Of a DNA stretch of 64,000 bases, positions 37,036-64,000 are shown piece by piece. The DNA lies in contig NZ_CP108488.1 of assembly GCF_035987325.1 (NCBI RefSeq), forward strand, positions 3,162,001 through 3,226,000, given 5' to 3'. A program made the translations under genes and the position numbers. Position 1 is the stretch's first letter, and each line of letters starts with the position of its first letter. The stretch comes from Streptomyces sp. NBC_01244 (GTDB lineage Bacteria > Actinomycetota > Actinomycetes > Streptomycetales > Streptomycetaceae). The notes beneath the pieces were generated by a model. The model worked only from the letters and a program-made list of their open reading frames with translations, ran no database searches and was not told the DNA's origin.

Positions 37036-38058
37036 CTAACCGGTGAAAGAAACGATCATCTTTCCGGTGTTGTCGCCGCGCAGCATTCCGAGGAAGGCGT
37101 CGGTGGCGTTCTCCACTCCCCGGACGACCGTCTCGTCGGCGACGAGCTGCCCGGAACGCAGCCAGCCGGCCACGTCCTGGACGAACTGCGGCTGCAGTCC
37201 CGCGTGGTCTCCGACCAGCACGCCCTGGAGGCGCAGGCGCTTGCCGATCACGAGGGCGAGGTTGCTCGGGCCGGGCACGGGCTCGGTGGCGTTGTACTGG
37301 GCGATGGCCCCGCACAGGGTGGCCCGGCCGTGGACCTTCAGGGAGGAGATGGCGGCCTCCAGGTGGTCCCCGCCGACGTTGTCGAAGTAGACGTCGACGC
37401 CCTCGGGCGCGGCCTCCTTCAGCTGCTCGGCGACGGGGCCGCTCTTGTAGTTGAAGGCGGCGTCGAAGCCGTACTTCTCTGTGAGGAGGGTCACCTTCTC
37501 GTCGGAGCCGGCGGAGCCGATCACCCGGGAGGCGCCCTTGATCTTCGCGAACTGGCCGACGAGGCTGCCGACCGCTCCGGCGGCGCCGGAGACGAAGACG
37601 GAGTCGCCCTCCTTGAAGGAGGCGACCTCGAAGAGCCCGGCGTAGGCGGTCAGGCCCGGCATGCCGAGGACGCCGAGGTAGGCGGAGAGGGGGGCGAGCG
37701 AGGCGTCCACCGGGGTGGCGTGCTTCGCGTCGACGTCCGCGTACTCGCGCCAGCCCAGACCGTGCAGCACGTGGTCGCCGACCGCGAAGCGCTCGTCGGC
37801 CGAGGCCACGACCTCGCCGACCGCGCCGCCGTCCATGGGCTTGTCGAGCTGGAAGGGCGGGATGTACGACTTCACGTCGTTCATCCGACCGCGCATGTAC
37901 GGGTCCACGGACATGTGGAGGTTGCGCACCAGAATCCGGCCGGCGGCGGGCTCGGCGTTGACCGGTACCTCGCGCAGGGCGAAGTCCTCGGCGACGGGCC
38001 AGCCCTGCGGGCGGCGGACGAGGTGCCACTCACGGCTGACGGCGGGGATCTCGGACAT
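37036..38058 (-). CDS. NADP-dependent MDR oxidoreductase (leukotriene B4 dehydrogenase-like)
   Basis: A 340-aa zinc-free medium-chain reductase. It has the MSVDPYMRGRM signature, the nucleotide-binding VFVSGAAGAVGSLVGQFAKIKG and a VYFDNVGGDHLEAAI segment typical of the curcumin/prostaglandin-reductase group. It reduces enone-type electrophiles, fitting an oxidative-damage unit with ohr downstream and MarR divergent. Confidence 0.92.
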   Translation of the reverse strand: MSEIPAVSREWHLVRRPQGWPVAEDFALREVPVNAEPAAGRILVRNLHMSVDPYMRGRMNDVKSYIPPFQLDKPMDGGAVGEVVASADERFAVGDHVLHGLGWREYADVDAKHATPVDASLAPLSAYLGVLGMPGLTAYAGLFEVASFKEGDSVFVSGAAGAVGSLVGQFAKIKGASRVIGSAGSDEKVTLLTEKYGFDAAFNYKSGPVAEQLKEAAPEGVDVYFDNVGGDHLEAAISSLKVHGRATLCGAIAQYNATEPVPGPSNLALVIGKRLRLQGVLVGDHAGLQPQFVQDVAGWLRSGQLVADETVVRGVENATDAFLGMLRGDNTGKMIVSFTG

Positions 38059-50794: not shown

Positions 50795-50812
50795 CCGGTA
50801 CCGCCCCAGGAC

Positions 50813-50871
50813 GCCGAACCCGCAGGTGCGATCGATTCTGCACCTGCGGCTCTAGGCGGGGCGGGCGGACT
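50813..50871. repeat. Left direct repeat (copy A) flanking the MutL-Z1 island
   Basis: A 59-bp sequence about 83% identical to 61078-61137. It contains a 10-bp hairpin CCGCAGGTGC / GCACCTGCGG and ends GGGGCGGGCGGACT, 2 nt into the stop of the dcm gene. It may also serve as terminator for the genes converging here. Confidence 0.7.
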
Positions 50872-52222
50872 AGCCGCGCAGATAGGCGTGAATGGCCGCC
50901 GCGATGGCCTTTCCCAGGGGAATGGGCACGGCGTTGCCGATCTGGGTGGCGATTTCGTTCTTCGTGCCGCACCAGCGGAAACCGACGGGGAAGCCCTGGA
51001 TGCGGGCGGCCTCGTAGTGGGTGATCGGGCGCGGCTCCGTGGGGTGGAGGTACCGACCCTTCTCGGGCTTGAAGAACTCGGTCCGGATCGTGACGGAGGG
51101 CTCGCCTTCTCGCAGGCGCCCCATCACGTCACCGGTGCCCGTGTCGTGCTTGTCCCAGCTGTCGGTGGAGAGGTACTGGACCGGCGTCGTCACTCCGTCG
51201 GGGTCGGGGACGTCGAAGAAGATCGGCTCCCCGGACTCGCTCATCGTGTACCACTTGTTCCGCAGGTGCATGCGATTCCCACCCGGCGGAATGGCGTGGT
51301 ATCGAGCGATCGACAACGGCTTCGGATTACGACCGAAATGGAGATCCGTGGTCTTGACCGTCTCGAAGGTTCCTCCGCCGATCGTGTTGACGCTCTGCTT
51401 CTCCTCGGGCAGCTCGGTTCCCTCCAGTGGGATCCCGGAGGATTCCTTGAAGACGCCGTCCGTGGAAAGCCAATCCGCCACCCCGGATTCCGTCCCCTCG
51501 AGGGTTTGCGCTGCATTCCCCTTCGCGTTCTTGGGGGATCGCGCGTGCGTGGCGAGGGGGTAGGCCATCCGCCGCTCGTTCGTCTCGTCACGCAGCACAC
51601 CGATGACGATGGCACGTCTGCGCGCCTGCACGGCCCCGTAGTTGGCGGCATTCAGCAGGTAGCGCTTGTTCCGCTGGTCCGCCGTGTCCCGAGGCTTGCA
51701 CCCCGGCGGGTCGACAAGGTCGTAGTCCTCCAGCAACCCGCCCTCTTCGACCTCGCCGAGCAGGTTGACGAACTCGTCCGACTTCAGGAATCGGTCGACG
51801 TTCTCGATGACGAAGACCTTCGGACGAATCTTGTGCACGATTCGTACGTATTCTTCCCACAGTCGATTCCGATCGACACCCTTCTTCTCCCGGTTCAATG
51901 CCGAGAAGCCCTGACAAGGCGGACCTCCGACCACCACGTCCGCGTGGAGGGCTTCGGGTGTCGGCTCCCATTTCTCGATGTCGCCCACGTACACCTGCAC
52001 CGGCGACTGGCCGTCCGGAACCTCGCTCGCGAAATTCGCGGCGTACGTGGCGGCCGCGGCCGGGTTGTGCTCGACCGCCGCGATGCTGTGGAAGACGGGC
52101 CCACCGACCTCCGCCGACCCTGCGGGGCGGAACTCGTGGAACCCCTGGGTGAAGCCGCCGCAGCCCGAGAAGAGGTCGACCACGGTAATGGGTTCGGGGA
52201 GGAGAGGACGGGGCTCGTGCAT
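50870..52222 (-). CDS. dcm: C5 cytosine DNA methyltransferase
   Basis: A 450-aa enzyme with all key m5C motifs: I (VVDLFSGCGGFTQGF), IV (VVVGGPPCQGFS, catalytic Cys), VI (VFVIENVDRF), VIII (AVQARRRAIVIGV) and X (TQIGNAVPIPLG). A long variable region carries target recognition. It should methylate a specific DNA site and is the likely host-protecting methylase of the island. ATG 52222 lies 10 nt after the preceding stop. The specificity cannot be read from sequence. Confidence 0.93.
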   Translation of the reverse strand: MHEPRPLLPEPITVVDLFSGCGGFTQGFHEFRPAGSAEVGGPVFHSIAAVEHNPAAAATYAANFASEVPDGQSPVQVYVGDIEKWEPTPEALHADVVVGGPPCQGFSALNREKKGVDRNRLWEEYVRIVHKIRPKVFVIENVDRFLKSDEFVNLLGEVEEGGLLEDYDLVDPPGCKPRDTADQRNKRYLLNAANYGAVQARRRAIVIGVLRDETNERRMAYPLATHARSPKNAKGNAAQTLEGTESGVADWLSTDGVFKESSGIPLEGTELPEEKQSVNTIGGGTFETVKTTDLHFGRNPKPLSIARYHAIPPGGNRMHLRNKWYTMSESGEPIFFDVPDPDGVTTPVQYLSTDSWDKHDTGTGDVMGRLREGEPSVTIRTEFFKPEKGRYLHPTEPRPITHYEAARIQGFPVGFRWCGTKNEIATQIGNAVPIPLGKAIAAAIHAYLRG

Positions 52223-52232
52223 AGGAGTGATC

Positions 52233-53987
52233 CTAGCCGCGCAAGGCAGCCGCGATGGCACCTCCGACGGCGTGGGCCAGCGGCGGGGGCATCGCGTGCC
52301 CGATCTGACGGTAACGGGAGGTCTTGCCGCCGAAGAAGCGCCAGTCCTCCGGAATCGACTGGACCGTCGCGGCCTGGTCCACGGTCAACCGTGGGACACC
52401 GTCGGCCGGAAAGTCGGCGTCCGGAACATCGTCCCCGAGGCTGCTGCCGTTCACGCCGAGGGCAGCCCACGCGTTCTTGCTCCCGGTGGGTCCCAGGTCG
52501 GCACCACCGCGCCGATCGGAGCCTCCCACGAGGGCCGGCGCGATCCGGCCCGCTCCCTTGATCCATGCCTCGGCTCCGGACCAGCCGTTCGCGGCCATGG
52601 AAGGTCCGAGCACGTCACCCAGCGTCGGAGGCTCGGATCCGTCCGGCTGGGGCCAGGAGAACCGGTGGAAATACTCGTTCCGCAGGGCCACGAGGAAGCC
52701 GCTGCCGCGGTTCTGGGGTACCCCGAAGGCCGAGGCGTTCAGGACCTTCCAGCCCGCGCCGTAGCCCAGTTCCGCCAGCCGGCCTTCGATCCACTCCCGA
52801 TCGGCTGCGAAGTACGGGCTCTCGACGAGGTCCATGAGGTTCTCCAGCAGCACGGCCTTCGGCCTGATCTCGCCCACCAGCTCGACGGCGGCCAGGAGTA
52901 CACGCAGCTCCTCGCCGTCCTCGGCCCGGCCGGCGGAGGCCGACGACTTCACCCGGGGAAGTCCCCCGCTGAGTAGATCCACACCGATGCACTCCGGACG
53001 CTCCTTCGGCCGGAAATCGGCCAGGTCCATGCAGAGGACATCCCAGTGGGGCCGGTTGAGGTCGATCGTGAAACAAGCGTCGGCCTTGCTGTCGATCAGG
53101 ACGACCGGATCGAACCCGGCCTGCTCCAAACCCAGTGCCTGCGCACCGGAACCGGCGCAGATCTCCACCGAGGTGAATCGGCCGGCGGGCCGGTCCGGGC
53201 CTTCCGACTGCGCGTCCTCCTCGGCAAGCTCGGCCGCCCGACGCTGCTCCTCGACCGACTCCTGCGCCACACCTCTCAGCTCCCCGTCCAACGCCGCTTC
53301 CTCCACGGCGTCGAAGACGACGAAGGGGGCGAGGCGAAGGAGTCGCTTGAGGAAGTCGCGGAGGGTTTCGCGTTCGTTCAGCCCCGTCAGGTCGAGCTCG
53401 TTCCACACCCGCAGGACGGCCCGTACCAGGTGGGGGCTGCCGCCCAGCGCGGCACGTCGTGCGTAGATCTGGTCGAAGGCGGCCTCCCCGAGAATCTTGA
53501 GGGCCTCGTACGGCTCCGGGGCGTCGGGCGCGTGGACGAGTTGCGCTCGCCACCACAAGCGCCCGAAGACGTGTCGGGTCAGGTCCGTTCCGAGGACGCG
53601 GTCCTTCGGAGGGGCGGGGTAGCGCCAGAATGCCACGTCCGGCAGGAGCACCAAGGCGAGAAAGGCCCAAACGTCCCGCGAGGCGGCTTCCGCCGGCACC
53701 ATGCCCGTCTCCCTGTGCAACAGGGCGGCGAGGGCGAGGTCGAAGTCCGCGTTCCGCGCGCGGTCGCCCGAGTCCGGAAAGCCCGCTGCCACGGCGAGTT
53801 CGACGACGGCCGCGCGCAGCTCCAGAAGTCGCCGGGCGGAGACGCGGTCGCCTCCTGTCGCCACGTACACGGCGGACTCGTGCGACGGGGACACGCGGGC
53901 CGTCAGCTCGGCGATCGGCAGGGTCCCGTATGCCTCGAAGAGGGGCTTGCCCTGTGCGGCGAGCAACCGCGGGAAAAGGAAGCTCAT
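52233..53987 (-). CDS. DUF6339-type N-domain fused to a degenerate C5 methyltransferase
   Basis: A 584-aa protein. Residues 1-260 are helical and resemble DUF6339. The rest has an m5C-methyltransferase fold with SAM motif I (EICAGSGAQALGLEQAGF), but motif IV reads VDLLSGGLPRVKSS where GGPPCQ with its catalytic Cys is expected. Motif VI is LENL, motif VIII PQNRGSG and motif X QIGHAMPPPLA. It is probably a catalytically dead SAM- or DNA-binding component. ATG 53987 shares one base with the upstream stop (TGATG); GTG 53990 is an alternative. Confidence 0.82.
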   Translation of the reverse strand: MSFLFPRLLAAQGKPLFEAYGTLPIAELTARVSPSHESAVYVATGGDRVSARRLLELRAAVVELAVAAGFPDSGDRARNADFDLALAALLHRETGMVPAEAASRDVWAFLALVLLPDVAFWRYPAPPKDRVLGTDLTRHVFGRLWWRAQLVHAPDAPEPYEALKILGEAAFDQIYARRAALGGSPHLVRAVLRVWNELDLTGLNERETLRDFLKRLLRLAPFVVFDAVEEAALDGELRGVAQESVEEQRRAAELAEEDAQSEGPDRPAGRFTSVEICAGSGAQALGLEQAGFDPVVLIDSKADACFTIDLNRPHWDVLCMDLADFRPKERPECIGVDLLSGGLPRVKSSASAGRAEDGEELRVLLAAVELVGEIRPKAVLLENLMDLVESPYFAADREWIEGRLAELGYGAGWKVLNASAFGVPQNRGSGFLVALRNEYFHRFSWPQPDGSEPPTLGDVLGPSMAANGWSGAEAWIKGAGRIAPALVGGSDRRGGADLGPTGSKNAWAALGVNGSSLGDDVPDADFPADGVPRLTVDQAATVQSIPEDWRFFGGKTSRYRQIGHAMPPPLAHAVGGAIAAALRG

Positions 53988-54883
53988 CACGACACCTCGA
54001 AGATTTTGACTGCGGCCTGGAGGTCCGAGGCGAACAGGTTAGGCGACTGTCGTTGGCGCAGCCGTATGTCGGTGATCGTCTGCCCGGGGAAAAGCCTGTC
54101 GAACAGGCTCGACAGGGTGGCACCCAGCGATCCGTCCGGGAAGTCGGACTCCTCGCTGAAGTCGTCGATGCCGAGCGCGTGCTCGATCATGATGCGGGCG
54201 GCGTCGGCATGGACGGCCGACAGCACGATCCGGTCGACCGGGCGAGGACTCCCCGCGTTGCGGAACGCGGCGGTGGTCACCGCATTGCGTTCGTTGACCA
54301 GGAGCAGCAGCGAGCCCATGGTCGCGCTTTCCGGACCTCCGCTGATCTGCAGGTGCCAGGCCGCGTCGTCGGGGAAGGAAGTCCGGGCGAAATCGATCAC
54401 GGCCATGGGGAACTGCGGCGCGTCGCCTTGGAGGCGCACCGTCGCCGGCTCGCTCCACAGGACGGATCCGGCCCGGCGGGGCGCCGAGGGGCGCGCGTCC
54501 TTCAGCCGATCCGCCAGGACCAGGACGGTGTCGAGGAGGAGCAGTCCGCCCAGGTCCGCACCACGGAGGTGGACGTCGAGGGCGACGGGCACGATTCCCG
54601 TCTCGGTCAGCCTCACCTGCCGTGCCGGCCCGCTGAGATTGGATCCGGTGGCCGTCCACACCACCGAGAGCATGAGCGCCGCATCGGACGTCAGGCCGCA
54701 TTGCGATCGCACCGCGTCCAGGTCGACCCGGACGGTTCTGCGCGCGTGCAGATCCATTCGGTAGTCCCAGTGGGGCAGCGCATCGGGAAGGGGCACCTCG
54801 CCGTCCTCCGTCACCAGCTGCCAGGCGTCTGCCACGACCGCCCCATCGGACGGCGTCCGATAGGGAAGAACTCGTCGGGTCAC
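53987..54883 (-). CDS. Uncharacterised component of the MutL-Z1 defence cluster
   Basis: A 298-aa protein not recognised. It is predominantly alpha/beta with hydrophobic strands (GGLLLLDTVLVLADRL, GSLLLLVNERNAV) and a C-terminal LSSLFDRLFPGQTITDIRLRQRQSP. No nuclease or NTPase motif is visible. GTG 54883 overlaps the stop of the GHKL ATPase gene by 4 nt, so it is translationally coupled and most likely a structural or effector partner in the same complex. Confidence 0.75.
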   Translation of the reverse strand: MTRRVLPYRTPSDGAVVADAWQLVTEDGEVPLPDALPHWDYRMDLHARRTVRVDLDAVRSQCGLTSDAALMLSVVWTATGSNLSGPARQVRLTETGIVPVALDVHLRGADLGGLLLLDTVLVLADRLKDARPSAPRRAGSVLWSEPATVRLQGDAPQFPMAVIDFARTSFPDDAAWHLQISGGPESATMGSLLLLVNERNAVTTAAFRNAGSPRPVDRIVLSAVHADAARIMIEHALGIDDFSEESDFPDGSLGATLSSLFDRLFPGQTITDIRLRQRQSPNLFASDLQAAVKIFEVS

Positions 54884-56808
54884 GGGATCGTCACCGCCTC
54901 CACCTTGATGGCGATCTCGGTCATGGTGTCGGCGGCCGGTCGTACCAGGGCGCGCCAGATCGCATCTCCGCCCTCGATGACACAGGCTGCGGACGTGTAG
55001 AGGAGGCCACCGTCGTCCTCCCAACCGATGAGGCCAGGCATGCTCGCCCCGAGCGGGGGGTCCGTCTCGCGCCCCGTCGAACCGGGCAGTACGACCGCCA
55101 GGTCGATACGGACCCGCTGAGCCCCGGGGGTCGGCAGCCGGAACTCCTGAACGAGCACGGCATCGTCCGCGTGGTCGTCGTAGTAGGGATCACCGACGTA
55201 CTCGACGCGCGGCCGACGTCGGGGCACGCCGGAGGCCGGGCTCCCGGGGCCGGACTCGTGGTCGGAGTCGGACCCACCGGAAGCGGCGGTGCCGGCCCGG
55301 CCCGTTCCCGTTCCGCCGTCGTCGGACCGCGACGGCCGTGTGACCATCCTGCCGGGTCTCGCGTAGGCGGTGGCTCCACCGATCCCCCAGGCCCCGCCCA
55401 CGAGTCCGGAGAAGAACGAGCTGGCGGCGCCGAGCGCGACATCGCTCGTCCCGGGCCGGACTCCGCCGCCCAGGGTGAGAAGCCCCTCCAGGGCCTCGTT
55501 GATCCGGCGGAAGGTCGTCTGTACGAACGTGCTCTCGGGGCGTTGGAGCGACTGGGGATTCCATGCGTCGTGCGTGGGCGGTTCGGCCTTCGCGTAGATC
55601 TCGTCCATGGACTCTGCGCCGCGGAAGACTCCGGCGTAACCGAGGTTCTCGCTCGGAGGCTTCGGTCCCGGCATGTAGGTGACGACCAGCTCCGCGGGCC
55701 GCATCAAACAGACGTGGTGGACGAGATCCTCGATGTCGAGCATGCGGGAGGCACGGGTGGGTTCCAGCGGCGGCATGATCCGCTTGATCAGCCCGAGGCG
55801 CCCCAGATGTCGCTTGGGGCTCTTGCACTCCAGGTCCCGCCCCTGGCTGCCCGCCATCTCCTCGTAGGCCGCGACGAACAAGTTCAGGGGACGAGTCTCC
55901 CTCGGGTCCGGCACCGGGTGGTCCACACCGTCGCAGGTCACCGAGAACCTCATGGCGGGATCGTCGCCTCCTGTGGAGATCGCCTTGGGCCACAGATGCC
56001 ATGCGAGCGAGTCGGCCAGGTAGGCGGCGGCCTCGGGCGAGGTGAGTTCATCCAGGTGCGGGTCGATGACGACGACCGTCGTCCCGGTCTCCCCGGGGGC
56101 GAAGGGCTTGAGCCCGAGCCGGTGCGCGACTGCGTCCGCCTCCTGCCCGACGAGCGGCTCCACCACGTCTCCCGAAGTGTCGCCCCACCAGTGCCGCCCG
56201 GTGTACCGACGGCCGTCCCCCGGTGCGGTGCCCACATAGCTCTTCCAGAGCGTGCACCCGATCAGTCGCGTCTCGGCCGTCCCCTCGGACGTTCGGCAGC
56301 GGGAATGCACCAGCACGGTCCCGGACCGGGAAAGCAGGTAGAAGATGCCCTTGCCGAAGCCGTATGTACCTCCGCCCAGGGCCGTGTCGCGAGGCTCGCC
56401 GATATTGCGGATGAACGAGACGAAGTCACGGTCCGGGCCCACCGCGGCATCCGCCCGAGTCGGCCCGCCCAGTCCTCGGGTGCCGCGGTCGGACACCGCG
56501 AGGACACGGATCGAACCCTGCTTGAGGGTGTCTCGCAACGGAAAGTTGTCCGCTGCGAGAGGCGAGCCCTCGGCCAGAAGGCGTCGCCAGGCATCGGTGT
56601 GGGCCGGCCCGACCGTCCACATGTCGATGCCGAAGTCGACGGGCCCCGAGGGCTCCGGAAGACGAGCGTCCCAACTGTTCTGGGCGGACTCGCGCACCAG
56701 GATGGTGAGGAGGTCCAGTTCCGGACGTCCGAGCTGGTTGCGAATGCCCTCGGCGGCGCTCGCTCCTTCGGGTGGGTAGGGCTGGGAGAACCATCGAGGC
56801 TGCCTCAC
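54880..56808 (-). CDS. GHKL (MutL/MORC-type) ATPase
   Basis: A 642-aa protein with an N-terminal Bergerat-fold ATPase: motif I TILVRESAQNSWDAR, motif II VSDRGTRGLGGP, motif III GTYGFGKGIFY and motif IV GTTVVVIDP. The C-terminal half has a Gly/Ser-rich linker followed by a beta-rich domain (YDDHADDAVLVQEFRLP). Related MutL/MORC ATPases act as ATP-driven DNA clamps. GTG 56808 overlaps the REase-like stop by 4 nt. Confidence 0.85.
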   Translation of the reverse strand: MRQPRWFSQPYPPEGASAAEGIRNQLGRPELDLLTILVRESAQNSWDARLPEPSGPVDFGIDMWTVGPAHTDAWRRLLAEGSPLAADNFPLRDTLKQGSIRVLAVSDRGTRGLGGPTRADAAVGPDRDFVSFIRNIGEPRDTALGGGTYGFGKGIFYLLSRSGTVLVHSRCRTSEGTAETRLIGCTLWKSYVGTAPGDGRRYTGRHWWGDTSGDVVEPLVGQEADAVAHRLGLKPFAPGETGTTVVVIDPHLDELTSPEAAAYLADSLAWHLWPKAISTGGDDPAMRFSVTCDGVDHPVPDPRETRPLNLFVAAYEEMAGSQGRDLECKSPKRHLGRLGLIKRIMPPLEPTRASRMLDIEDLVHHVCLMRPAELVVTYMPGPKPPSENLGYAGVFRGAESMDEIYAKAEPPTHDAWNPQSLQRPESTFVQTTFRRINEALEGLLTLGGGVRPGTSDVALGAASSFFSGLVGGAWGIGGATAYARPGRMVTRPSRSDDGGTGTGRAGTAASGGSDSDHESGPGSPASGVPRRRPRVEYVGDPYYDDHADDAVLVQEFRLPTPGAQRVRIDLAVVLPGSTGRETDPPLGASMPGLIGWEDDGGLLYTSAACVIEGGDAIWRALVRPAADTMTEIAIKVEAVTIP

Positions 56809-57830
56809 ACGGACCCCCGGATCATGTGGTCGATGGTTCGCGACACCTCGTCGGAGGCCAAAGGCGCGGGCGTCTCGCCCGACAGATCGATGGTGTATGC
56901 GACGTCGAGGACCGAGATCGGAACTCCCGCCTCCGTGAGGGCCCGGGCCGTCAGGCCCGGGAAGCCCGGTCCCACCCGATACCAACGCTCCTCGCGGATC
57001 TCGAAGCTCACGTCCCGGTACCGCTCGGCGTCGGAGGTGCGATATCCGGCCCGGGCCAACAGTTCGACGAGGGCGGCTTCGTCGTCGCACAGACGGAGTG
57101 CTTCCCCGATCAGCTCGACGAGCCCGACACCTCTGCCTGGCACGGTCGTGCGCCCCAGCCGGAACCAGGCCAGGTGGAGGATTCCGTCCGCCGGTGGTTC
57201 GAGCTGGTCGAGCCCGTGGATTCGTGGCCGCCTGCCCTGGTCGTCGGTGCTCGCCTTCACCTCTACCGCGGTGTTCCCGGCCGAGAAGTCGTGGCGATGC
57301 CGTTCGGGACCGAGCCACAGCCTGTGCGCGCTCGAATCCTGCTCCAGCAGTCGACGGAGCAGCACCAGCTCGCCGAACAGACCGGCCAACTGCTCCGGTC
57401 CCAGCGGGGCCCCCGGGGGCCGGAAGAGATCCTTCCACCGGTCCAGGACCCGGTACAGCGCCTTCACGGGGTTCTCCGGCAGGTCCCGTGCCTCCTCCGT
57501 CACGTCGACACACAGTTCTGTGAAGAGGTCCCCGAGGTCCTCGCGCCTGCAGGCGAGATCGGCATAGACCTGGTAGGTCTTCTCGTCCTCCAGAGGCCGC
57601 CTGCGCAATTGGAGCGTCGGCCCGTCGAGGCCGGTACGGAGCTTTCGACCCGTGGGAATCGGCACGAGGAAGTGGCGGTAACCCTCGTGGTCGACGGCCA
57701 CCGCCAAAGGCCCGTGGTCGACGGAGACGGGCAGCGGGGAAACCCTCAGGCGGTGTTCACCGGTGGCACGCTCCGCCTCCAGTCCCGTCCATCGCTCCTC
57801 TATGAGGCCGCGGAGCTCGTCCTCCCTCAT
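56805..57830 (-). CDS. PD-(D/E)XK motif (DUF4420) nuclease-like protein
   Basis: A 341-aa protein of the DUF4420/PD-(D/E)XK family. The core is GLFGELVLLRRLL followed by LGPERHRHDFSAGNTAVEVKAS, giving the D...ExK catalytic motif. It is predicted to be the DNA-cleaving subunit of the restriction/defence system. ATG 57830 overlaps the Z1 stop by 4 nt (ATGA). Confidence 0.87.
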   Translation of the reverse strand: MREDELRGLIEERWTGLEAERATGEHRLRVSPLPVSVDHGPLAVAVDHEGYRHFLVPIPTGRKLRTGLDGPTLQLRRRPLEDEKTYQVYADLACRREDLGDLFTELCVDVTEEARDLPENPVKALYRVLDRWKDLFRPPGAPLGPEQLAGLFGELVLLRRLLEQDSSAHRLWLGPERHRHDFSAGNTAVEVKASTDDQGRRPRIHGLDQLEPPADGILHLAWFRLGRTTVPGRGVGLVELIGEALRLCDDEAALVELLARAGYRTSDAERYRDVSFEIREERWYRVGPGFPGLTARALTEAGVPISVLDVAYTIDLSGETPAPLASDEVSRTIDHMIRGSV

Positions 57831-60382
57831 GCCTCCTCACCGTCGACCAGGCTGAAGTCCTCGTCCTCGATCATCACGTTGGGCAGCCGGGCGGAGACGT
57901 ACTTCTCCACCTCGCTGTCCTCGCCCCACGGCGCCGGAAAGACCAGACCGACGCCGATGACGTGCTCCTCGGCGTTCAGGGCTGCTCGACTCTTCTTCGT
58001 GGGGCTCGGCTCGGAGACCTTGTCGATCGGATACAGCACGAGCAACCCGGTGTGCGGAGCCTGAACCCGACGCAGGTCCATGATGCCCTTCTCGGTCAGC
58101 TTGGCCGTGTCACCGCTCAAGTCCACGGCGGCATCGCGACGGCTCATGAGCGTCTTGATGTCGGCGGAATCGGGGCTGGGGATGGTGACGTCCAGCCGTG
58201 CTCGTACGCTGCGCCCCACGCTCACGCCGGGGGCGAACTCGAAGTTCTTCTCCCCCACCGGGTTGCCGATGATCGCGACGTTCCACCGTCCGAGGGAACC
58301 TGCCTTCGAGACTCGCTTGCGGATGTAGCCGATGATCAAGTCCGCGTCGTTCTCCGGCGACCTCTCGTGAAACTTGTAGGACGACAGGAAGTCGGTGACG
58401 GCCTCGTGAGGAACGTCCCGGAAGACGTGGCGTCCGTCCTCGGGACGGACCTCGGCTCGCACCGCCGCGTCGACGGAGGTGGCGACCAGTGCGCGCGCAG
58501 CCTCGATGTTCCCGTTGAGCCACTCCCTGCCGGTGTGGAAGTAGTGCGTCTGCACCCGCTTGCCCCCGTAGGAGGAGGCTGCCGTGACGGCATCGCGCAT
58601 CTTGGCGGCAGCGGTTACCCGCAGAGCGGGGTGGGTGCGCAGGCGTACGGCGAAGGTAAGAGGGCTCTCGTCCTCCGTCATGTAGACGTCGATGTCGCGA
58701 CGCATCTCGGTCTCGACGGTGGCCAGGTGCCGGAACCACTCCGCCAGTTCGTCGGTCATCCAGATGCGGGGCAGGTCGGCGTAGCCGTTGCGGAAGCCGA
58801 ACCACCGCCCCATCTGGAGCAGCGTGTCGTACGCCGAGACGGACCGAACGAAGTAGCTGACGGACAAGCCCTCCAGCGTCAGCCCTCGGGACAGCGTGTT
58901 GCCACCCACCGCGATCGCGACGACCGGCCCGTTCTCGTAGTCGAGGCGGTCCTCGCTACTGGAGTTGTCCATGATGACCCGGCATCGTCGGAGCACCCCC
59001 GGCAGCTCGCCGAGCAGCTCCTCGAAGGGCACACGGCTCTCGCCGAAGTCCTCTGCCGGCACCCGGGCGGATTCCTGCTCCCACAGGAGGCGCAACCCGG
59101 ACAGGTAGGCGACATCCTCGAGGGACTCCGCGGCCCGCTCGTGGAGACGTTCCAGCGGTAGCTTGAAGCTGTTGTGCACCGAGGTGTTGACGCTGGTGTG
59201 GACCAGCATCGTGTTGTGCGGGTTGCCGGTTCCCCGGATCCCACGGGCCGCCGTCACCAACCAGAAGTACTCCACCGCCCTCCGGAGCGTGTCCGTGATG
59301 ACCGGTTCGAAACCGTCGACGTCCGCTTTGGTCGCGGGCCGCACACAGGGCATGTCGTCGTCGGGAACCGAACGGATCATGTCGTGGCCGTCGTCGACCT
59401 GGTTCGGGTCCTCGCCGTCCAGCGCGTACCGCCCGAAGAGCACCTCGGTGCCGAAGTGCCCTGCGGGCTTGGGCAGGTTGACGACGAAGTCCTTGGGGTA
59501 CAGGTCTGCGGCGCTCGGGTCGATCAGCAGGTTCGCGAAAGGGGAGGCCGTGTAGCCGACGTAGGCCGACTTGGGCAGGCTGCTCATGATCTCCAGAATG
59601 AGCGGATTGATCGACTTCGTCGCCACCGTGGCCTGGTCGGCCTCGTCGTCGATGATCAGGGCCGGACAGTCCCCGAGGTATTCGGAGGCCTTCTGGAGCC
59701 ACTGGGAGAGCTTGCGCAGGACCGTCGCGTTCTTCTTGACCACGCACAGGACGTGGGTCTTGTTGTTCTTGCCGAAGTAGGAGGCCGGGTTCTCCTGAGG
59801 GGTGAAGTCCCTGTCGACCCCGGTGAGCTGGGACCACATCGCCGGATTCGGCTCCACGAGCTGCTGGACCAGGCGCGCTTGCGTCTGGCGTCGCAGACCG
59901 TTGTGGATGCCCGCCAGGACGATGAACAGTTTGTAACCGCGATCGGCCGCTTTGGCCATGACCGAGGTGAAGTTGGTGGTCTTGCCCGACTGCACGTGGC
60001 CGACGACGAGCCCCCGTGTGGAGAAGGCCCTCTCCTTCGGATGGTTCAGCAGGGAGACGATACGCGTGGAGGAGTCGTCGAGGCTGTTGATCGCCGGGTC
60101 CCGCGGCCAGCCGTCCTTGGCGAGCAGATCCACGATGGCCGGCCAGCACTTGTCCTTCGCACGCGGACCCGTGTACCAGGTGTCGCGGTTGCCGAGCACC
60201 ACGGCGTGCGGCTCGTCGAGTTCCTTGATCTGGATCGTCTGGTGCTCATGCCGCTCTCGGATCCGCTGGACGAGATCCGCGTCCACACCGAGCTGTTCCA
60301 GCCGCTTGACTGCCTCAGCCGGGGGAAAGTTGTCCAAAATCGCAGCAAACGTCTCATACATGATGTCGAAATCGTCAGTCAT
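57827..60382 (-). CDS. Z1-domain helicase-like ATPase
   Basis: An 851-aa SF2-like ATPase. It has Walker A GHVQSGKTTNFTS near residue 130, Walker B ALIIDDEADQATV, YVGYTASPFANLL and a C-terminal helicase segment GGNTLSRGLTLEGLSVSYFVR followed by LLQMGRWFGFR. The Z1 domain is diagnostic for this restriction/defence class and probably drives DNA translocation or unwinding for the nuclease. It is the first gene of the six-gene coupled operon; TAATAG at 60522-60517 is a possible -10 with a leader of about 130 nt. Confidence 0.92.
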   Translation of the reverse strand: MTDDFDIMYETFAAILDNFPPAEAVKRLEQLGVDADLVQRIRERHEHQTIQIKELDEPHAVVLGNRDTWYTGPRAKDKCWPAIVDLLAKDGWPRDPAINSLDDSSTRIVSLLNHPKERAFSTRGLVVGHVQSGKTTNFTSVMAKAADRGYKLFIVLAGIHNGLRRQTQARLVQQLVEPNPAMWSQLTGVDRDFTPQENPASYFGKNNKTHVLCVVKKNATVLRKLSQWLQKASEYLGDCPALIIDDEADQATVATKSINPLILEIMSSLPKSAYVGYTASPFANLLIDPSAADLYPKDFVVNLPKPAGHFGTEVLFGRYALDGEDPNQVDDGHDMIRSVPDDDMPCVRPATKADVDGFEPVITDTLRRAVEYFWLVTAARGIRGTGNPHNTMLVHTSVNTSVHNSFKLPLERLHERAAESLEDVAYLSGLRLLWEQESARVPAEDFGESRVPFEELLGELPGVLRRCRVIMDNSSSEDRLDYENGPVVAIAVGGNTLSRGLTLEGLSVSYFVRSVSAYDTLLQMGRWFGFRNGYADLPRIWMTDELAEWFRHLATVETEMRRDIDVYMTEDESPLTFAVRLRTHPALRVTAAAKMRDAVTAASSYGGKRVQTHYFHTGREWLNGNIEAARALVATSVDAAVRAEVRPEDGRHVFRDVPHEAVTDFLSSYKFHERSPENDADLIIGYIRKRVSKAGSLGRWNVAIIGNPVGEKNFEFAPGVSVGRSVRARLDVTIPSPDSADIKTLMSRRDAAVDLSGDTAKLTEKGIMDLRRVQAPHTGLLVLYPIDKVSEPSPTKKSRAALNAEEHVIGVGLVFPAPWGEDSEVEKYVSARLPNVMIEDEDFSLVDGEEA

Positions 60383-61077
60383 GGGACCCGCCCCGGCTCT
60401 CTTCGCTGTGGCCGGCGGACTGTTGGGGTCGCCCCCTCCCCGAACCGTGCGGCGAAGGAGGGAGGTGTCGCCCGAAGAGCGCTCACCGACACGGCACCCT
60501 CATGGAACGTCACACACTATTAGGCATACGGGGCGCCCACGCGAGGCTAAGGTCACGACCGGCCACACGAGGCGGAACGCCACCGCGACCATCGCCCCGG
60601 GGAGGGCCGCCCGCGCGACGGGTGCACCGCCCGCACCCTGATGCCACATGGGCACACGCAGCCCCTCGATCAACGAAGGTCTACCGGTCCGCCCCCGCCC
60701 ATCATGGGGCGGGGACGGCGGATCAAGCATGGCTGGATCTCGACCAGGGGAACGCGAAAGGCAGCCCCCGCGTGCTTGCCCGGATCACCACGACGGAACG
60801 CGTGCGACCAAGGTCAAGAGCATCCGAGCCGACCTGCTCGCCACCCCACACCCTGCCGCCGGTGATCAGGCCGCCGATGAGCAGAACCGCTCCCACACCG
60901 ATCACCGCAGACTTGTACGCACACCTTCCGGGCGGGGCGGGCGCGACGCCGCCGAGGTGGACGCCCCGCTCGTGCCGCACCGTCGGCGCGATCGGCCCGA
61001 GACGGATGACCTGCGGGGAAGTGCTCAGCAAAGGGCTTGAGCTCGGATCGGCTCATGGCACGACGGGCCCCGGACAC
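60383..61077. other. Gene-poor right end of the defence island
   Basis: About 700 bp without a convincing gene. It should contain the Z1 promoter. On the minus strand, 60723-61031 can encode 102 aa with one hydrophobic helix (SAVIGVGAVLLIGGLITGG). The codon pattern is weak and neighbouring frames hold similarly plausible fragments, so it is more likely decayed sequence or chance. Confidence 0.4.
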
Positions 61078-61137
61078 GCCGAAGCCGCAGGCAAGATCGT
61101 TTCTTCACCTGCGGCTCACAGCGGGGCGGGCAGGACT
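61078..61137. repeat. Right direct repeat (copy B) with tRNA T-loop-like edge
   Basis: A 60-bp match to 50813-50871 (9 mismatches, 1 gap). An 8-bp hairpin GCCGCAGG / CCTGCGGC is followed by GCGGGGCGGGCAGGACT. On the minus strand, with the next bases, it reads GGTTCGAGTCCTGCCCGCCCC, like the T-loop and 3' acceptor strand of a tRNA. No matching 5' half is found. Confidence 0.7.
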
Positions 61138-61184: not shown

Positions 61185-61691
61185 TCAGGCCACGGGTTCC
61201 CGGCCGGCCGGCAGCCGGCCGGCCCTCCATTCCCGGGCCTGCCGCCGGCACGTCCGCCCGTCGTGGCCGGGCGGGATCAGGGTGCCGGCGGGGAAGGCGA
61301 CGATCGCTCCGAGCAGGACCAGGGGCTGCGATCCGTACGTCAGGCCGACGGCCAGGGCGGCTCCGCCGACCACACCCGAGGCCGCGGGTCCACCCAGCGC
61401 CACCGCCAGGTTCCGCGCGGCCCCGAGGTCCTCGTGCGACACGGCCATCGAGCCGCCCTGCCACTCGGCCCGCAGTTCTCGCGCGCCGAGGAGCAGCGCC
61501 GTCCGCGCGTGGCCGTATTCGTGTACGACGACACACAGGGGGACGGCGACGAACCCCGCGAGCACCAGGAACCGGAACGCCCAGCCCGCCGGCCATACGC
61601 ACACCAGCATCAGTCCGGTCGCGAGGGCCAGCCAGGCCAGGGGCCTACGGCCGTGGACGAGGGCGACCAGAACCAGGCGCAGCAGTATCAC
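61185..61691 (-). CDS. Site-2-protease-like (M50B) membrane metallopeptidase
   Basis: A 168-aa membrane protein with the zinc motif VVVHEYGHARTALLLGAR (HExxH) in a hydrophobic context, with two helices before and two after it. A second ligand motif of the usual LDG/NPxPxxPLDG type is not clear (IPPGHDG is a possible remnant). GTG 61691 overlaps the permease stop by 4 nt. Co-expression with an ABC transporter suggests cleavage of an exported or membrane-embedded peptide. Confidence 0.78.
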   Translation of the reverse strand: MILLRLVLVALVHGRRPLAWLALATGLMLVCVWPAGWAFRFLVLAGFVAVPLCVVVHEYGHARTALLLGARELRAEWQGGSMAVSHEDLGAARNLAVALGGPAASGVVGGAALAVGLTYGSQPLVLLGAIVAFPAGTLIPPGHDGRTCRRQAREWRAGRLPAGREPVA

Positions 61692-63286
61692 CGCTCCGCC
61701 GTCCGTGCGAAGTCACGGTCCTTGACCCGCATCACCTGCTGGACGGCGCACAGGGCGGCCGCGCAGACGAGCAGCCAGTGAGCCGCGGTCGCCGCTGCCG
61801 TGGAGAGCGCCTCCACGGAGGAAGCGAGCCAGAACAGCCCACCCAGGGCTGCTCCGCTCATCAGCCCGCTGACCAGCAGTGTCACCCGCTTCTCCGCGAA
61901 GTCGGCGGTCACCGTGGCGAGCCCGAACAGCACGCTCAGCGCACTCCCGGCGAGCGCCATGGAGAGGATCACCACGTCCCGGCCCGCTTCGAAGGGAACC
62001 AGGCTGACGACGCGCACGGCGATGACGGTGAGCAGCCCCACGGCGATCGCCCCGAAGGCGTTCTGCCGGCCCCAGAGGGAGAAGCCGCGGGGGTGGATGG
62101 CGTAGATCCAGGCGTTGCCGGCGAGTCGGAACGGGGCGAGACCGGTGATCAGGGAAGAGATCCCGCAGACGCCGAGCAGGAGCAGCGAGGCCGTGGCGTC
62201 CTGGAGATAGCCGAGGTGGTACAGGACCGCGATGGCCGCGGCGGCGGCGAGGGAGACGGAGGTGGCGGAGATGTAGAGGGGGTCGCGCAGCAGTTGGCGA
62301 GCCTCCGTCCGGGCGCCCCTTCCCGGCAGCCGGACGAAGCGCAGCCGCCACGGGGCGCCGCTCTCGTTGTTGCGCGCGGTCGTGCCCGCGAAGGAGAGGA
62401 CGTACGCGCAGAGCAGGCCCCAGAGGGAGCTCGCGAACACCGCCAGGAGAACACCCGGGAGGGTCTCGGGGACGCCTCCGGTCACGGCCAGCGGCGGACA
62501 CAGGACGTACAGGCCCGAGGTGCGTCCGGCGAGGACCAGGCCGATTCCGGTGATGAGGAGGATGCCGCAGAGCGAGGCGCTGACGGACTTCACGCCGAGC
62601 GCGTCGTTGGAGGACCGCATGACCAGCGCCGTCAGGGCCTGGACGGCGAGCGTGGTCACGGTGGCGACCAGCGCGGTGAGCGCCGAGAACAGCAGGGCCA
62701 CGGCGAGCGCGAGCCAGAAGGAGGTTCCGCCGGAGGCCTGCACGCGCGTGAGGGACAGCACGGTGACGGGGCCGACCAGGAAGGAGGACACGGTCATCGC
62801 CGTGACGTACGGGGGGATCAGCTCGCCGAGGGCCCGGTTCCAGCGGCCGACTCCCTTGGAGACGGCGAGGACGCGGACGCCCGCCGGCTGGAGACCGAGG
62901 ATGTCCAGGATCAGCGTGGCCCCCGAGGCCGCGGCCGCCATGCCGGCGAGCGCCGCCCGGTTGACCTCCTTCAGCTGGCGATCCTGGAGCACGGTGAGGG
63001 TCTGCTCGTGCACCAGCGGGGCCAGCGCCTGGACCTGGAAGGCGACCATGGCCAGACCGAACACGAACAGGACCAGGAGTACGGCCGAGGTGATGACGGG
63101 CGAGCGGTCCAGCATCTGGCGCACGGTGTTGCGCTGGGACCGTGCGGTCGCCCCGGCGATGGCGAGGGCGGGCCGGAGCGAGCGCCGGTTCGGGGGTCTG
63201 CGGGACGCGGGCTCGCGTACGCGCGCGTACGCGAGTAGAGGGGCGGGGGCGGCGGGAGCGGGGGCGGGAGCGGGAGCGGCCCTCAT
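61688..63286 (-). CDS. ABC transporter permease (large, about 12 TM)
   Basis: A 532-aa permease. The Pro/Ala-rich N-terminus is followed by about twelve hydrophobic segments, starting with VITSAVLLVLFVFGLAMVAFQVQ and ending WLLVCAAALCAVQQVM. It pairs with the downstream-overlapping ATPase gene (ATGA at 63286/63283) as a type-2-like exporter. Substrate unknown. Confidence 0.85.
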   Translation of the reverse strand: MRAAPAPAPAPAAPAPLLAYARVREPASRRPPNRRSLRPALAIAGATARSQRNTVRQMLDRSPVITSAVLLVLFVFGLAMVAFQVQALAPLVHEQTLTVLQDRQLKEVNRAALAGMAAAASGATLILDILGLQPAGVRVLAVSKGVGRWNRALGELIPPYVTAMTVSSFLVGPVTVLSLTRVQASGGTSFWLALAVALLFSALTALVATVTTLAVQALTALVMRSSNDALGVKSVSASLCGILLITGIGLVLAGRTSGLYVLCPPLAVTGGVPETLPGVLLAVFASSLWGLLCAYVLSFAGTTARNNESGAPWRLRFVRLPGRGARTEARQLLRDPLYISATSVSLAAAAAIAVLYHLGYLQDATASLLLLGVCGISSLITGLAPFRLAGNAWIYAIHPRGFSLWGRQNAFGAIAVGLLTVIAVRVVSLVPFEAGRDVVILSMALAGSALSVLFGLATVTADFAEKRVTLLVSGLMSGAALGGLFWLASSVEALSTAAATAAHWLLVCAAALCAVQQVMRVKDRDFARTAER

Positions 63287-64000
63287 GCGCCCGGCTCCAT
63301 GAGCGCGGCGAAGATGTCGTCCGCGGTGTCGCCGACGTTCTCGAGGCCGCTCAGGCGCAGCACCGCGGCTTCGAGCGTGGCCGTCCCGGCCGCGTCACTG
63401 ATGGAACGGGGAGCGCCCTGCGCGACGAGCCGCCCGTCGGACAGCACCACGATGAAGTCGCATTCCCGCTCGGCCGTGTGCAGGTCGTGGATGGTCACCA
63501 GTGCGGACCGTCCGGAGCGCGTCCAGGTGCGCAGCGCGAGCCGCAGAAGCACGGAGCCCTCGACGTCGAGGCCGGAGAAGGGCTCGTCGAGGATGAGCAG
63601 CGGGGCATCGCTGCTGAAGGCTCCGGCGAATTGCAGACGCCGCTTCATGCCGTGGCTGTACGAGCCGACGAGCTTGCCGAGCGCGCCGTCGATGCCGAAG
63701 ATCTCGGCCAGCCGCTCGGCATTGCGCATCAGGTTCCGGGGGCGGTCTTCCAGGCCGGCGATCAGGCCCAGGTACTCGTGTCCGGTGAGCATGTCGGGCA
63801 TGGGCAGTTCGTCGGGCGCGTACGACACCATGCGCTTCGCCCGGTCGGTGCCGAGCTTCTCCCCGAAGACCCGGCCGCTGCCGCCGCTCGGTTCGGTCAG
63901 CCCGATGACGCAGCGCAGCAGGGTGGACTTGCCCGCGCCATTGGCCCCCACCAGTCCGCACACGGCGCCGGCGGGCATGGTGACGGTCACGTCGCGCAGT
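63283..64000 (-). CDS. ABC transporter ATP-binding protein (start beyond window)
   Basis: A partial ATPase; the reading frame stays open to the last base (LRDVTVTMPAG), so the start lies outside. Walker A GANGAGKSTLL, signature SYSHGMKRRLQF (a variant of LSGGQ), Walker B LLILDEPFSGLD and switch His TIHDLH are present. It is the first visible gene of the ATPase-permease-peptidase operon and resembles Nod/bacitracin-type export ATPases. Confidence 0.9.
   Translation of the reverse strand, partial: LRDVTVTMPAGAVCGLVGANGAGKSTLLRCVIGLTEPSGGSGRVFGEKLGTDRAKRMVSYAPDELPMPDMLTGHEYLGLIAGLEDRPRNLMRNAERLAEIFGIDGALGKLVGSYSHGMKRRLQFAGAFSSDAPLLILDEPFSGLDVEGSVLLRLALRTWTRSGRSALVTIHDLHTAERECDFIVVLSDGRLVAQGAPRSISDAAGTATLEAAVLRLSGLENVGDTADDIFAALMEPGA

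Follow-up and report, generated by a model that had tools for sequence, protein, structure and literature searches.

Why does an operon that carries one intact C5-cytosine methyltransferase also carry a second whose catalytic cysteine is gone? We addressed this question in a 64,000-nt stretch of the Streptomyces sp. NBC_01244 genome (contig NZ_CP108488.1, positions 3,162,001 to 3,226,000; hereafter the window), where a six-gene operon lies on the minus strand, genes 3, 4 and 5 having a GTG start. The original prediction had described an MZA-like defence operon with a DUF4420 protein, a GHKL ATPase, a DUF6339/degenerate methyltransferase and Dcm. Pfam and motif alignments bore out this gene content, and the Dcm motifs proved intact, but membership of MZA was rejected. 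In relatives, as here, one and the same wrong residue replaces the catalytic one of the second methyltransferase, gene 5; the protein has therefore probably been retained to read DNA or to serve as a partner, rather than for catalysis.

The two methyltransferases

Gene 5 (52233..53990, minus strand) encodes a 585-aa fusion, as seen from Pfam and alignments, of DUF6339, named in the original prediction and placed by Pfam at residues ~134-235, and a C5-methyltransferase-like region (residues ~272-579). Alignment of the catalytic residues revealed that the motif IV Cys is replaced by Arg346, invariant in a 17-row alignment of gene 5, so that the protein lacks the catalytic Cys of an active C5-cytosine methyltransferase. 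We then examined conservation among matches at E 1e-60 or better; more distant intact forms lie outside the counts, and the statement that the position holds Arg or Cys only is valid within that range. The alignment comprised 169 rows, with the ten loci L135-L144 counted once; two rows under 150 bits were left out (L043, a gap-shifted Cys form, and L230, an Arg form), and three rows from Streptomyces, gapped at the catalytic position but reading PC one column further, were scored as Cys. The two genome sets share species, and 157 of the 169 rows are different. Arg occupied the catalytic position in all 145 dead rows; the alignment reads Arg in L006, L015, L113 and L116. The Pro of motif IV is kept, Arg is the replacement for Cys in every case, and the loop bears the signature GLPRVKSxAT. 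This dead family occurred in 103 of the 392 sampled Streptomyces genomes (128 genomes matched, three of them, G012, G280 and G289, by DUF6339 only). Its ratio of non-synonymous to synonymous substitution (dN/dS), taken from pairs with 80-98.5% protein identity and a proportion of synonymous differences (pS) < 0.60, was about 0.11.

The intact enzyme is gene 6, Dcm (50870..52222, minus strand; 450 aa; Pfam DNA_methylase 1.3e-47). Motifs I, IV (PC), VI (ENV), VIII (QxRxR) and X (GN) are all present by sequence reading and a motif scan that included relatives, with PCQGFS, ENV, QARRR and GNAVP read in the sequence, and the product is thus predicted to be active, in line with the earlier description of an active-looking enzyme. 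The idea that the recognition region of the dead domain tracks the resident Dcm was not supported.

The C-terminal region of DUF6339 proteins is an exchangeable module. In the genera represented by seven loci (L043, L045, L047, L048, L050, L052 and L064), DUF6339 is joined to a different C-terminal region of ~250 aa, replacing the dead methyltransferase of Streptomyces; no Pfam match was found for this region in L045, the one scanned.

The other genes of the operon

Gene 2 (56805..57830, minus strand; 341 aa) is a DUF4420 PD-(D/E)XK nuclease-like protein (Pfam DUF4420 8.7e-52, in line with the identity first proposed for it), and its E154, D181 and E190-V191-K192 are unchanged in 13 of 13 alignment rows. 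Gene 3 (54880..56808, minus strand; 642 aa) is a paraMORC2-like ATPase by its motifs; the GHKL motifs, claimed earlier and now found invariant in 23 of 23 aligned rows, are accompanied by an equally invariant ExxxH motif as given by Iyer 2008. Comparison of the gene 3 sequence with solved structures gave no match (best E 0.36). Gene 4 (53987..54883, minus strand; 298 aa) encodes an unnamed protein with a predicted immunoglobulin (Ig)-like beta sandwich followed by helices; fold comparison, which barely covered residues past 153, gave only the Ig-like arrangement and no outstanding relative. No homology could be shown between gene 4 and its positional counterpart in separate-type loci (BLASTP E 0.37; hhalign probability 2%, E 0.024). 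A further part of the operon occupies 57827..60382 on the minus strand.

Comparison with known systems

MZA (Gao et al. 2020) was known to us through the PADLOC and NCBIfam models and a sentence in Miller et al. 2022. We rejected membership because the scores fell far short of the NCBI cut-offs and MZA genes were missing: MzaD scored 80.4 bits against an equivalog cut-off of 420, and a further membership score was 391 bits against 1500. Neither the six proteins of the operon (E up to 0.1, with genes 5 and 6 judged on their best 25 rows) nor seven neighbour proteins (E up to 0.001) matched MzaA, MzaB or MzaE (AIPR) in PADLOC. The present operon also differs from MZA in its C5 methyltransferases and DUF6339. 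The available text of Miller et al. 2022 (PMC9523054) describes a putative 'Type I' defence system, associated with DNA repair endonucleases, with three further genes unnamed in the main text; a dead methyltransferase is not mentioned in that portion.

A resemblance in gene set is found in the MORC/paraMORC-SFII helicase-NRE-DCM-VSR neighbourhoods of Iyer et al. 2008 (PMC2292703). According to the available text, a DThhQXuRhFG-domain helicase, an E-D-ExK nuclease, a cytosine methylase, Vsr and a GHKL-S5 ATPase with ExxxH (paraMORC2) are common ground, whereas DUF6339, gene 4 and the dead methyltransferase are not described there. As to the repair endonucleases of Type I, a Vsr-like match was present in 37 of 39 fused-type relatives; no Vsr lies beside the operon at the present locus. 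Among PADLOC candidates, gene 3 matched PDC-M33A weakly (3.8e-8), PDC-M33C weakly matched the DUF6339 of a relative only (L142, 1e-5; gene 5 was covered by the best 25 of 54 rows), and gene 4 had no match. CglI and NgoAVII, as described in the part of PMC4267653 available, unite reader and nuclease in one PLD-B3 protein, a Pfam domain absent from the six operon proteins; the present operon instead has a separate PD-(D/E)XK protein, a GHKL ATPase and the dead methyltransferase. Our literature search, with bioRxiv and most subscription papers outside its coverage, found nothing on DUF6339 or PDC-M33 and, for inactive C5 methyltransferases, no paper on a dead one in such a system.

Possible roles of the dead methyltransferase

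We tentatively suggest, with somewhat less than even confidence, that DUF6339-paraMORC defence systems sense DNA through a subunit drawn from a dedicated bacterial family of pseudo-C5-methyltransferases, dead enzymes that would have become self/non-self readers and a bacterial counterpart of Dnmt3L and DRM3. These two, in the available text of PMC2965745, are non-catalytic paralogues maintained by selection, like gene 5, that have lost the Pro-Cys of motif IV; they are, however, eukaryotic and of separate origin, while gene 5 has Arg for Cys, keeps Pro and belongs to a defence operon. Dnmt3L serves Dnmt3a as a non-catalytic partner, as DRM3 is believed to serve DRM2, and the dead methyltransferase might similarly stimulate or target the active Dcm, the other genes forming a restriction arm. 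Besides these precedents, an intact Dcm is visible at 57 of the 58 loci carrying a dead copy, often as the adjacent gene. Yet one dead family adjoins two quite different Dcm families, the dead domain is fused to DUF6339 and not to Dcm, and a Dcm also stands beside intact relatives of the domain (L043, L045, L048 and L150). We judge such a partnership to be unlikely.

A visible intact Dcm at 57 of 58 loci fits self-marking better than a modification-dependent system, in which the dead methyltransferase would sense modified foreign DNA and Dcm serve another role such as regulation. No modification reader of this make-up emerged from the literature, and we hold this explanation to be quite improbable, even though the recognition region does not track the resident Dcm and, as we infer, Arg for Cys could alter the pocket. 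The kinship of GHKL proteins with MutL and the frequency of Vsr-like genes in fused-type relatives would suit an operon for mismatch or m5C-deamination repair (MutL-Vsr-like) in place of defence; to this we assign a very small probability. Decay of the second methyltransferase, or of the entire operon, might be read from the lost Cys and missing Vsr, but the uniform Arg, the low dN/dS, the open frames and the catalytic motifs, which are intact in genes 2, 3 and 6, speak against a remnant. We therefore rejected decay of gene 5, and the remnant explanation, already contradicted by conservation, is scarcely credible.

Ends of the island and neighbouring genes

The operon is bracketed by a 56-bp direct repeat whose copies are 84% identical. 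The downstream copy (50811..50866) is a worn tRNA-Met 3' end with terminator; the upstream copy (61076..61131) shares 85.6% identity across 104 nt with the 3' region of tRNA-Met in G012 (L067). A 40-nt pattern of the repeat had two matches only in the genome at <=3 mismatches, and in three relatives the sequence is the intact tRNA-Met 3' end and terminator region, adjoining two tRNA-Asn. The intact tRNA-Met of the present genome lies at C1:3249820, with 3'-end copies at 3236702 (perfect over 23 nt) and 3223121 (20/23), the most worn of the row being the repeat at 3212811-3212871. From its arrangement, the operon looks like the far (outermost) segment of an element array laid down at tRNA-Met. 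A further diverged copy at 7043791 (77% of 104 nt), with no tRNA in the surrounding 16 kb, is unaccounted for by a simple tRNA-Met array. Integrase had 12 matches in the genome, none at 3.20-3.26 Mb. When 61 genomes, among them the window's own, were searched at the DNA level for the upstream flank, only short matches lay past the tRNA-Met 3' end, and an empty site was not sought further.

The tRNA-Met(CAT) 3'-end copies, up to the intact tRNA-Met and two tRNA-Asn, span C1:3212811-3249842, from window position 50811 to past the window end. Past the upstream repeat, 61185-63990 encodes a protein weakly resembling M50B peptidases, one of 532 aa that has no Pfam match, and an ATP-binding cassette (ABC) ATPase with a weak PADLOC mad3-like match. 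Elsewhere in the window, ARAGORN placed a selenocysteine tRNA at 37567-37652.
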